Part shown: positions 2,538 through 5,441 of the stretch, one piece after another
Position numbering within the stretch: the first letter of the stretch is position 1
Layout: every line of letters starts with the position of its first letter
From: a virus
Virus record (IMG/VR): IMGVR_UViG_3300044948_000247
Location: 1 to 22,589 of that record
Length of the DNA: 22,589 nucleotides
Direction: 5' to 3' (one strand)
Program-made: the position numbers and the translations under genes
The notes under the pieces: generated by a model
Seen by the model: the letters and a program-made list of their open reading frames with translations, nothing else
Databases searched by the model: none
What the model was told of the DNA's origin: nothing

Positions 2538-3145
2538 AATCCATTCATATCACACAAGGACGATTCAATCCTGTGCATGCAGGCCACGAAATGGTCGTCA
2601 AGCATGTGATGGATGCGGCCAAGAAAGAAGGAGCCGATCATAAGATCCTGACAACAGGATCTCATGATGCCAAGAAGAATCCTTTAACACCTGAGCAGAA
2701 GGTGAAGCATCTTTCTCGTGCTGTCAAAGGTTCGCACGTCGAGGCGATGACGAAGGAACATCCGACTCTGCTCCATCAGATGTCAAAGCTGCATAAGGCT
2801 GGTTACACACATGTGACTATGCATGTCGGTTCTGATCGTGTACACGAATTTCATAAGCTTTTGCATCAGTATAATGGCACAGAGAATAAACATGGCCATT
2901 ACAACTTCAAGAGCATCAAAGTAAAGTCTGTCGGTGGCGAACGCAAAGAAGGTGGAGGTGGAATTGAATCTGCTTCTGGTACTGCTATGCGTAAGCACGT
3001 CACCGCTGGAGATAAAGAATCATTCCATAAGATGGCTCCATCTGGTATGAGCAAAGCACATAAAGACGAGTTGTATCACGATGTCCGCAAAGGCATGGGT
3101 GTGAACGAATCATTCATTGTCAGATTTAAAAACTGGATTAGTTGA
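2534..3145 (+). CDS. NMNAT/cytidylyltransferase-like nucleotidylyltransferase
   Basis: This 203-residue protein belongs to the HxGH nucleotidylyltransferase superfamily. QGRFNPVHAGHE at 8-19 is the G-x-F-x-P-x-H-x-G-H phosphate-binding motif, VGSDR lies at 98-102, and SASGTAMR at 146-153 corresponds to the ISxTxIR motif. Family members transfer AMP or CMP to a phosphorylated acceptor such as nicotinamide mononucleotide, with release of pyrophosphate. A run of glycines at 140-143 precedes the second motif. The start overlaps the upstream stop (ATGA). Adjacency to a ligase-like and a HAD gene suggests one pathway, either NAD+ supply or nucleic-acid end chemistry. The acceptor is not known. Confidence 0.82.
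   Translation: MKSIHITQGRFNPVHAGHEMVVKHVMDAAKKEGADHKILTTGSHDAKKNPLTPEQKVKHLSRAVKGSHVEAMTKEHPTLLHQMSKLHKAGYTHVTMHVGSDRVHEFHKLLHQYNGTENKHGHYNFKSIKVKSVGGERKEGGGGIESASGTAMRKHVTAGDKESFHKMAPSGMSKAHKDELYHDVRKGMGVNESFIVRFKNWIS
2637..2668 (+). repeat. Long hairpin (13 bp, one mismatch) in NMNAT-like gene
   Basis: AGATCCTG (2643-2650) pairs with CAGGATCT (2655-2662) around an ACAA tetraloop. After a single A/C mismatch the stem continues with ATCAT (2637-2641) and ATGAT (2664-2668). It begins about 103 nt into the gene. Confidence 0.7.
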
Positions 3146-3153
3146 TCCGTTAA

Positions 3154-3230
3154 AGTTTCCTTGTTATAAATAGATTTGCGGTTAGGCTACGGCAATCCCG
3201 TTTGTTTAACAGATAAGCCCAAGGGAAACT
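3154..3230 (+). promoter_or_regulatory. Inverted repeat that can mask the ribosome site of gene 3234
   Basis: AGTTTCC (3154-3160) is complementary to GGAAACT (3224-3230), and TTG (3161-3163) to CAA (3220-3222). The 3' arm covers the AAGGG ribosome-binding site of the gene at 3234. The late octamer at 3165-3172 would start RNA near 3178, downstream of the 5' arm, so late transcripts could not form the pairing whereas read-through transcripts could. This is the arrangement known for several T4 genes. Confidence 0.5.
3165..3172 (+). promoter_or_regulatory. T4-type late promoter (TATAAATA)
   Basis: This exact octamer lies in the 88-bp gap before the large head gene, which is the best-placed late promoter in the window. 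The expected start is near 3178, leaving a leader of about 56 nt. In T4 such promoters are read by polymerase carrying the late sigma factor gp55. Confidence 0.8.
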
Positions 3231-3233
3231 CTG

Positions 3234-5441
3234 ATGGAAGATAAGAAGAATAAACCGGTCGACACAAAACAGTTAAAAAAGCCAACCGGAACGTCTGTAA
3301 CTGGCAAACCACTTGATGGTATCGAGATCCGTCCTCAGCTCAAAGGTCTCGGCAATCGCCAGCACAACGAGGATACCGTAGTCCTAACTGACACTTTAGC
3401 TGAGAAGAAAGCACTGACACTCGTTCAGCGCCAACGCAGAGCTCGCATCTTGAGAGCCAAAGAACCGAAGATGCAGAGAGCCAAAGAAGTTGCTCAACAC
3501 AAACTCGCCTCAGACGAAAAGCTGAAGGCTCGAGCAATTGTCAAAGCAAGAAATATTGTCAAGATGCGGTTTGCATCTCGTAGAGGTACTCCTTATACTG
3601 AGCTCACCACATCTGAAAAAATTCAAGTAGATAAGGTAGTCGATAAGAAGGTCAAGCTGATCAGAAGATTAGCTGCTCGCCTTCTACCTGCTCTTCGTAA
3701 AGCAGAAGTCAATCGTCTCGCTTCATTCCAATCGGGATCAAAAATACAACATGCGACTGCTGCCCCAGTCAACGAAGAATTCAATACAATCGTAGAGAGT
3801 CTTGATAATAAGACTTCTATGCAACTCGTCGACATTATCAACGACTCTATCGATGCCCTCAACGAGAATAATAACTCGATGGGTATCACGCTGAAGAGAC
3901 TCCTAAGCGCAGTTCTTCCAGAAGACGTAGCAACGTCAACCCTCATGAAAAAATCCGAAAGAACCGGCATACCGTTCTCGACCCTCAGAGAGGTGTTCGA
4001 GCGCGGTTCTTTTGCGTGGGAAGATGACGGCAGAACAACGCAAGAACAATTCTCTTTCTCAAGAGTGAACAGCTATATTGCCAAGGGCAGAGCTTGGACA
4101 CTCGATGCAGATCTTCGTGAAGAGAAAGAAGTCAACGATAAGCTCGATAATGTTTTCGAGGCATATCATACTGGACTCAGCGCTTCGACTGCCAAGGCAC
4201 GCGAATCTCACTGGAAGAAGATGGAAAAGTATTCTGATCGAGATCCGCGTGCATATCAAGATGCACCTGGTGACAAGGCAGCTCGTAAGAAAGATATGCC
4301 ACAATCTGTACACACAAAGAAATATAAAGCGATGTACGGAGAAGAGATTGAACAGATGGTCAACGAAGCTGCTGACGGTCTTGCTGCCAAGGCAAAGAAG
4401 TCAGGTGTTTCCTTATCCACTCTGAAGAAAGTGTATGCTCGCGGTGTTGCTGCTTGGAACAGCGGCCACCGTCCAGGAACTACACCACAACAGTGGGGCA
4501 TGGCTCGCGTAAACTCTTACATCACAAAGGGCAAAGGCACTTATCACGGTGCTGATAAGGATCTTCGTGAATCTGATATCAATGAAAGCCTATGGGCTAA
4601 CATTCATGCCAAGCGCAAGAGAATTAAAGCTGGATCTGGCGAACGTATGCGTAAGCCTGGATCGAAAGGTGCACCGACTGACGCAGGCTTTAGATCGGCA
4701 TCTGAAGCAGTCGAAACAAATCCATCTGTAAACAAGAAGGATACTTCTGTGCAATCTGTCGCAGTGTCTACTAAACTAGATAGAAAATCACATGAATTTG
4801 TTGATAGAGGCGCTTTTAATAAAGGTGCAGCCAAGCGCCATCAAGAAATTAAAAAGAAAATTATTGACGAGTCGAACAATAAACCATACGTCAAGCCTTT
4901 CACAGAAAAAGGCAGCACTCAGCAACGTGGTTGGAAAGCCTCGAACAAGCATGGCAAGGTAAAGTACTTTGGCATGGACTTCAAAGCCTCGGCACATAAG
5001 CACGCTGGAATTAATGAAGCCGCTGAAAAGCATCCAATTGCGAAAGAATACGACTCACTAAAGAAGCACGATATTAAGACTCTGCATGGTCTTATTAAGC
5101 AACAAAGCAAAGTAGTTGATACTTCTGAATTTAAAACAAAAGATCATGCAATATCGCACTATCTGCGTAACAAGCATGGCCACAAAAAAGTAGATGCTGC
5201 ATTTGGATTTAAAGAAGATACTGCAGCAGATCGTGAAGTTGGTACTAAATCACTCGTCAAGAAGTATCAGAAAGAAACTCCTGGACAGGAAAAAGCAGAT
5301 ATCAACGAAGTGTTTAATACAACTTTCGACGAAGAGAAAGAAACCAAATCAGACTTTCGTATGATAAAGGTTCGCACACCTAAGGGATGGGCTTGGAGAA
5401 AAGTTCGTCGCGAAGTTGATATCGAGAAGGACGCAGAATGA
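3234..5441 (+). CDS. Large modular Lys-rich head protein with two DUF5824-like repeats
   Basis: This 735-residue protein is very basic and low in hydrophobic residues. Residues 55-165 resemble a conserved Arg/Lys-rich helical segment seen in marine T4-like phages. Two copies of a DUF5824-type unit lie at about 238-294 and 387-444, each with a (T/S)L(R/K)xVxxRGxxAW core and xRVNSYIxKG end; the second is the better match. Between them is an STAKAR...PGDKAARKK segment common in phage proteins. Later modules start SLWANIHAKRKRIKAGSGER (452-471) and AAEKHPIAKEYDSLKK (596-611). (I/L)-x-E sequences at 186-188, 294-296, 444-446, 449-451, 544-546, 593-595 and 690-692 often sit right at module edges. 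A prohead core or internal-peptide precursor role is inferred. A late promoter and RBS-masking repeat lie upstream. Confidence 0.7.
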   Translation: MEDKKNKPVDTKQLKKPTGTSVTGKPLDGIEIRPQLKGLGNRQHNEDTVVLTDTLAEKKALTLVQRQRRARILRAKEPKMQRAKEVAQHKLASDEKLKARAIVKARNIVKMRFASRRGTPYTELTTSEKIQVDKVVDKKVKLIRRLAARLLPALRKAEVNRLASFQSGSKIQHATAAPVNEEFNTIVESLDNKTSMQLVDIINDSIDALNENNNSMGITLKRLLSAVLPEDVATSTLMKKSERTGIPFSTLREVFERGSFAWEDDGRTTQEQFSFSRVNSYIAKGRAWTLDADLREEKEVNDKLDNVFEAYHTGLSASTAKARESHWKKMEKYSDRDPRAYQDAPGDKAARKKDMPQSVHTKKYKAMYGEEIEQMVNEAADGLAAKAKKSGVSLSTLKKVYARGVAAWNSGHRPGTTPQQWGMARVNSYITKGKGTYHGADKDLRESDINESLWANIHAKRKRIKAGSGERMRKPGSKGAPTDAGFRSASEAVETNPSVNKKDTSVQSVAVSTKLDRKSHEFVDRGAFNKGAAKRHQEIKKKIIDESNNKPYVKPFTEKGSTQQRGWKASNKHGKVKYFGMDFKASAHKHAGINEAAEKHPIAKEYDSLKKHDIKTLHGLIKQQSKVVDTSEFKTKDHAISHYLRNKHGHKKVDAAFGFKEDTAADREVGTKSLVKKYQKETPGQEKADINEVFNTTFDEEKETKSDFRMIKVRTPKGWAWRKVRREVDIEKDAE

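Follow-up and report, generated by a model that had tools for sequence, protein, structure and literature searches.

The 5' leader of gene 3234 in an IMG/VR viral record (IMGVR_UViG_3300044948_000247; the whole 22.6 kb stretch is hereafter called the window) looks like a control switch rather than a simple cover for the ribosome-binding site (RBS). With moderate confidence, we interpret it as a cis-acting switch in late mRNA, coupled to the translation of its own leader open reading frame (ORF), in T4-like aquatic phages. The structure of the element is well supported by the comparison of related sequences: these establish, at the level of predicted RNA pairing, two small hairpins (P1 and P3), a long-range helix between the leader and the coding region, the mutual exclusion of alternatives in folding, an anchoring to the late transcription start, and the existence of split and fused forms of the downstream ORF.

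The window appears to come from a T4-like (Kyanoviridae-type) phage, as suggested by its ribonucleotide reductase, thymidylate synthase and primase genes, its T4-type late promoters and protein matches to Melnitz and HTVC008M. The gene downstream of the element (3234..5441, + strand, with its AUG at 3234) encodes a 735 aa protein of unknown function with two DUF5824 (PF19141) stretches. The earlier note had called it a large head gene of the structural core; its PHROG matches are either of unknown function or cytidyltransferase-linked, and the head-gene label thus finds no support beyond the neighbourhood. A literature search for DUF5824 returned no paper.

A T4-type late promoter octamer, TATAAATA, recognized from the sequence, occupies 3165..3172 on the + strand (-13 to -6), placing the predicted +1 at 3178. 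Relatives were collected by protein and DNA searches and 85 distinct ones were compared: all 85 have a NNTAAATA octamer just 5' of the leader, which takes the form TATAAATA in 66/85 and has a C at position 2 in 16/85 (e.g. ACTAAATA). The ACTAAATA or GCTAAATA octamers of some leaders correspond to a variant described for phage Aeh1 (PMC2988020). The conserved leader, as delineated by conservation and a covariance model, occupies 3178..3233 on the + strand, starting at the predicted late start and stopping one base short of the AUG, and that of the window scores 77.5 bits against the model (E about 1e-16). Across the 85 relatives it is these first 56 bases of the predicted late mRNA that are conserved; they are nearly invariant, with the protein down to about 45-55% identity and the flanks differing. 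Sequences upstream of the promoter differ among relatives, often through insertion of another gene; many of them carry an inserted gene that separates the stop codon of the cytidyltransferase from the late promoter (window 3145-3165; L004, L006, L029, L043), and this junction therefore looks like an insertion hot spot. Several copies of the element per genome were considered and rejected: nine of the ten long contigs have one strong copy each, and the tenth has one weak match.

Hairpin P1 pairs GCGG (3178..3181, + strand) with CCGT (3198..3201, + strand), the latter being also part of the long-range 5' strand, and shows compensatory changes at all four pairs. Hairpin P3 pairs CAGA (3210..3213, + strand) with TCTG (3230..3233, + strand), directly 5' of the AUG, and has in its loop the Shine-Dalgarno AAGGG (3221..3225, + strand, read from the sequence), this loop being kept in relatives. 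In diverged members P1 has 4 bp around UAAGGCUACGGCAGAC-like loops, and P3 has 4 bp around UAAGCCYAAAGGGAAAC; here too the Shine-Dalgarno lies in the P3 loop and the AUG follows at once. P1 stems include GCAG/CUGC, GCGA/UCGC, GUGG/CCAC, GCGG/CCGU, GUGA/UCAC and AUAG/CUAU among others, while P3 changes in compensatory fashion at its two outer pairs (CAGA/UCUG, UGGA/UCCA, CCGA/UCGG, CUGA/UCAG); the two inner pairs are invariant by ascertainment, since the search patterns fixed GATAAGCC/GGGAAACTC and hence part of P3. In an unfitted alignment of 36 sequences, 94.8% of the P1 and P3 cells are paired (shuffled, 78.1; slid, 19-49), with 67 versus 21 double-change cells and a covariation of 0.615 versus 0.268 (0/500). 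On 62 model-aligned sequences the paired fraction is 98.4%, with 119 versus 35 double changes. Both stems are only about 4 bp long and are predicted to be weak in the window itself. A kissing interaction between GGCU of the P1 loop and AGCC of the P3 loop was rejected, as P3 loops with AACC keep GGCU in P1.

Variants of this arrangement also occur. Leaders in which the late promoter is closely followed by P3, with no P1, are found at L255, L265, L357 and L358, where the genes after them are unrelated ones or a cytidyltransferase gene. On the reverse-complement strand of L289 (about 4230-4330), a cytidyltransferase gene is preceded by two P3-like hairpins in tandem, arranged in another order; this tandem suggests that P1 and P3 may be copies of one hairpin.

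The 5' part of the leader has a partner inside the coding sequence. Its long-range 5' strand (3180..3202, + strand; blocks GGTTAGG, CTACGG, ATCC and CGTT) is complementary to a 3' strand at 3366..3389 (+ strand; AACG, GGAT, CCGTAG and CCTAACT), the blocks being 3180-3186/3383-3389, 3187-3192/3376-3381, 3195-3198/3371-3374 and 3199-3202/3366-3369. The partner segment thus lies within the following ORF, 150-200 nt downstream in the window and 37-190 nt downstream of P3 in relatives. Pairing with compensatory changes was found in most relatives, as exemplified by CUACGG/CCGUAG, CUAAGG/CCUUAG, CUAUGG/CUAUAG and CUACGCC/GGCGUAG. Overall 84.3% of positions are paired, with 29 versus 12 double-change cells and at most 40% in slid versions, and leaders score 45.1 with their own partner, 33.7 with swapped and 25.2 with shuffled ones. 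The outer part begins 5-8 nt past TAAATA in 62/64 cases, which indicates that the long-range pairing begins at the predicted late start. The long-range strand is absent in some members (L220/L222/L233, L236, the L260/L267 group, L333, L340 and L219).

The long-range helix dominates the predicted fold of 3178-3400. RNA that stops at the AUG folds with 3.4 expected pairs for P1 and 0.63 for P3; when the coding strand is included, the long-range helix has a mean probability of 0.82 (>0.5 in 68/72) and P1 drops to 0.03. The two share bases and are mutually exclusive in equilibrium folding, and the minimum free energy has a z of -4.3 against versions with the coding part shuffled. Of 142 windows compared among 24 close sequences, the one with the codons for NEDTVVLT (3366-3389) varies least at synonymous sites (0.010 versus 0.298). 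In three lineages, the part before the leader/main boundary is less diverse at synonymous sites than the part after it (0.191/0.318, 0.083/0.402 and 0.109/0.382); a recently exchanged 5' cassette could also produce low values of this kind. By calculation, forming the long-range helix hardly raises the energy needed to open the RBS (7.1 to 7.6 kcal/mol), so that equating the long-range state with an off state does not follow from accessibility; masking of the ribosome site by this helix was set aside as unsupported by these opening energies.

The first 56 codons of the gene (3234..3401, + strand) form a leader-ORF segment that in twelve distinct relatives is a separate peptide gene. In these split forms the ORF after the element has only 33-40 aa, its stop codon lies no more than 8 nt from the 5' edge of an intrinsic terminator hairpin (-10 to -16.5 kcal/mol), and the homologue of the main gene comes next with its own start site. 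In one of them, L254, the main protein is alignable with that of the window starting at residue 57 of the latter (32% identity); thus, window codons 1-56 correspond to what is elsewhere a separate leader ORF, with a terminator in between. The terminator is limited to the short-ORF relatives, about 105-120 nt after the AUG. Between 3000 and 3700 of the window no + strand terminator was found, and the leader ORF there runs in frame into the gene; the combination of a short leader ORF and an adjacent terminator that characterizes an attenuator is hence seen in the twelve split forms and not in the window. In Escherichia coli, terminators are repressed by ribosomes at a stop codon located a few bases upstream (PMC4824070), and the split forms can accordingly be read quite naturally as translation-coupled attenuators; as a caution, the ORFs are short, and efficient termination is possible within the first 100 bp of a coding region (PMC4824070). 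The leader peptide keeps a PQL...VVLT-like pattern, and predicted peptides such as MDRIVNTPRDNNVSSPKLDMVAGEMGALVLTRRFL do not look hydrophobic by inspection. L261 has the leader-ORF segment joined to a cytidyltransferase domain in place of a DUF5824 protein. In split forms such as L277 and L254, the P3 loop (AAGCCC/AAGCCU) is complementary to GGGCUU/AGGCUU in the terminator arm, which may be chance or an antiterminator contact.

A mechanism for the switch can be proposed along these lines. P1 would form first on the nascent RNA, the leader ORF would be translated from P3, and a ribosome on its first 11-50 codons would keep the long-range strand open. Were the leader ORF left untranslated, the 5' end would fold back on the coding strand, and the closed domain would give low expression. 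As the leader ORF is fused in frame in the window, the switch would there act on the translation (or stability) of gene 3234 itself; in the split forms, where the leader ORF ends at an intrinsic terminator, a failure of leader translation would end transcription before the main gene. In the window, the upstream arm considered below would be an added lineage-specific layer. We infer that leader translation holds the P1 state and that the long-range state is one of low expression, as we do any signal or ligand; which way the switch works is the least secure part of the mechanism, given the small effect on RBS opening. More tentatively, the element could represent a new family of switches, in which one sensing domain has two outputs, either translational (fused ORF) or transcription-terminating (separate ORF), and which would provide feedback on a late gene after its promoter has fired, possibly via a ligand or protein reading the paired P1 and P3.

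The earlier note had instead proposed that an arm upstream of the late promoter (AGTTTCCTTG, 3154..3163, + strand) masks the ribosome site on read-through RNA only, leaving the gene silent early and on from the late promoter. The complementarity across the promoter is indeed present: AGTTTCCTTG at 3154-3163 can form 10 pairs, with one bulged G, with CAAGGGAAACT at 3220-3230 over the ribosome site, and a further outer helix that the note had missed (TCCGTTA 3146-3152 / TGATGGA 3232-3238) would cover the AUG too. The expected difference between the two transcripts is likewise recovered, with 3140-3260 folding at -28.0 kcal/mol with the arm-RBS hairpin and 3178-3260 at -16.0 without it. The former fold does not stand out from whole-stretch shuffles (z -1.37, 17/200), whereas the upstream 35 nt form an uncommonly strong duplex with the RBS (-20.5 kcal/mol, p=0.007). 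The burial of the Shine-Dalgarno and AUG in read-through RNA depends on its length: in ensembles with starts at 3140, 3100 or 2900 and ends at or before 3300, the arm-RBS helix has a probability of about 0.9 and the AUG is closed, whereas late RNA has no arm-RBS pairing and an AUG that is open with a probability of about 0.4-0.7. In read-through RNA extended to 3395-3450, competition from a stronger long-range helix lowers the arm-RBS helix to 0.02-0.31 in 5/6 cases (0.63 in the other). The arm is also lineage-specific: it is present at p<0.02 in only 6/62 upstream-flank clusters, a mild excess over the 1.2 expected, the energies of its duplex span -20.5 to -10.8 in the cluster to which the window belongs, and in most relatives that share the leader the sequence 5' of the promoter is unrelated and the arm absent. 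Nor do the two arms covary among relatives: the RBS side is invariant, so that no covariation supports the pairing; the RBS sequence is already accounted for by a different conserved hairpin, P3, within the larger switchable domain of the late transcript. For e, soc, 49 and I-TevI of T4, the late promoter is situated 3' of the arm and 5' of the RBS, and late RNA lacks the 5' arm (PMC3014915). The window resembles these precedents in having a T4-type late promoter (TATAAATA, 3165-3172, with a predicted +1) between the arms and a read-through RNA that can mask the start, and differs in that its arm is not conserved and its conserved structure lies wholly in the late transcript, where it pairs with the coding region. 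Thus, the promoter position claimed for a late-promoter masking switch stands and its conservation as a design does not; as the late transcript would lack the 5' arm, the arm is a possible extra masking layer of this lineage, distinct from the conserved element. As the explanation of the feature as a whole, we regard arm masking as improbable.

Protein binding to the paired hairpins and protection of the 5' end are serious rivals to the switch. P1 and P3 (stem-UAAGNCYANNGGNARAC-stem) might form a tandem operator for a phage or host RNA-binding protein that represses or activates translation, with the long-range helix tuning access to P1; the alike loops, the covarying stems around fixed loops, the reordered pair of P3-like hairpins in L289 and the occurrence of P3 alone before a few other genes all fit this reading, and T4 gp32 and gp43 control their own mRNAs by protein binding (PMC3014915). 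Yet the downstream product varies (a 35 aa peptide, DUF5824 proteins, cytidyltransferases), making simple autoregulation by the product unlikely, and an operator alone leaves the long-range covariation and the terminators unexplained; we hold it to be possible, though on balance unlikely. Somewhat less likely still is that the long-range helix mainly shields the late-mRNA 5' end from decay by keeping its 5' nucleotides paired, rather than switching translation. Such a role is consistent with pairing from the predicted +1 and with the small effect of the helix on RBS accessibility, but does not explain why P1, which excludes that helix, covaries, or why a terminator stands beside the leader stop codon in the split forms. 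Finally, the free swapping of upstream flanks at the promoter and the retained peptide pattern would be compatible with a horizontally exchanged DNA cassette of promoter and N-terminus, or a conserved peptide, with no RNA function; the double changes that preserve pairing in P1, P3 and the long-range helix, and the peak of synonymous constraint at the long-range strand in the window lineage, make this very improbable.

Parts of the element resemble T4 RBS masking, attenuators and metastable leaders, and as a whole it appears to be an uncatalogued RNA family. Ribosome-mediated transcription attenuators of the pyrBI and mgtL type have a leader ORF next to an intrinsic terminator. The split forms are comparable in their leader RNA, 33-40 aa ORF, stop at the terminator and main gene next; they differ in having a late phage promoter and a long-range helix of the 5' end with the coding region as an alternative to P1, and the window differs in its fused leader ORF and lack of a terminator. 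The hok/aapA type I toxin mRNAs combine metastable local hairpins with a 5'-3' long-distance fold (PMC6733600). Systems of this type code for a small membrane toxin and have an antisense RNA as antitoxin. Similarly, local hairpins of the nascent RNA are here predicted to give way to long-range pairing of the 5' end, as seen on comparing equilibrium folds ending near the AUG with those including the coding strand; unlike in those systems, there is no hydrophobic toxin by inspection, the partner strand is inside the ORF, and the gene is a phage late gene. The manA and wcaG RNA motifs, known from T4-like cyanophages, are structured 5' leaders in marine T4-like phages (PMC2864571), a setting shared by the present element, which differs in lacking an Rfam match, in preceding other genes and in being tied to the late promoter start.

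Rfam searches of window 2900-3400 at E up to 5 gave no family match, manA and wcaG included; at six diverged loci, permissive thresholds gave only tRNAs and one sub-threshold match outside the element, to the ribosomal L20 leader (L225, 1680-1800; E=0.6, under the gathering score). The leader element had no blastn match among the INPHARED sequenced isolates, and the covariance model found nothing above noise in Melnitz, HTVC008M and C48C1. Occurrence in hosts or prophages was rejected, as a pattern search of 84,980 genomes gave only matches without promoter and P1, which in bacterial genomes appear to be due to chance. A search for loci related to the diverged L111 protein returned L111 alone, and our literature search found no paper describing this leader.

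Control of late genes in T4-like phages is usually placed at the promoter. If the proposal is true, a conserved, covarying, switchable RNA at the late start would mean that some of these genes have a second, post-initiation control, and would add an uncatalogued RNA family to aquatic viral genomes; the predicted structure is open to direct and cheap tests via compensatory synonymous changes. Separately, gene 3234 contains, at residues about 452-490 (window 4587-4703), a 40 aa module (SLWANIHAKRKRIKAGSGERMRKPGSKGAPT, phrog_16028) with further matches in marine podoviruses that are otherwise unrelated and in ORFs located at ribonucleotide reductase genes.
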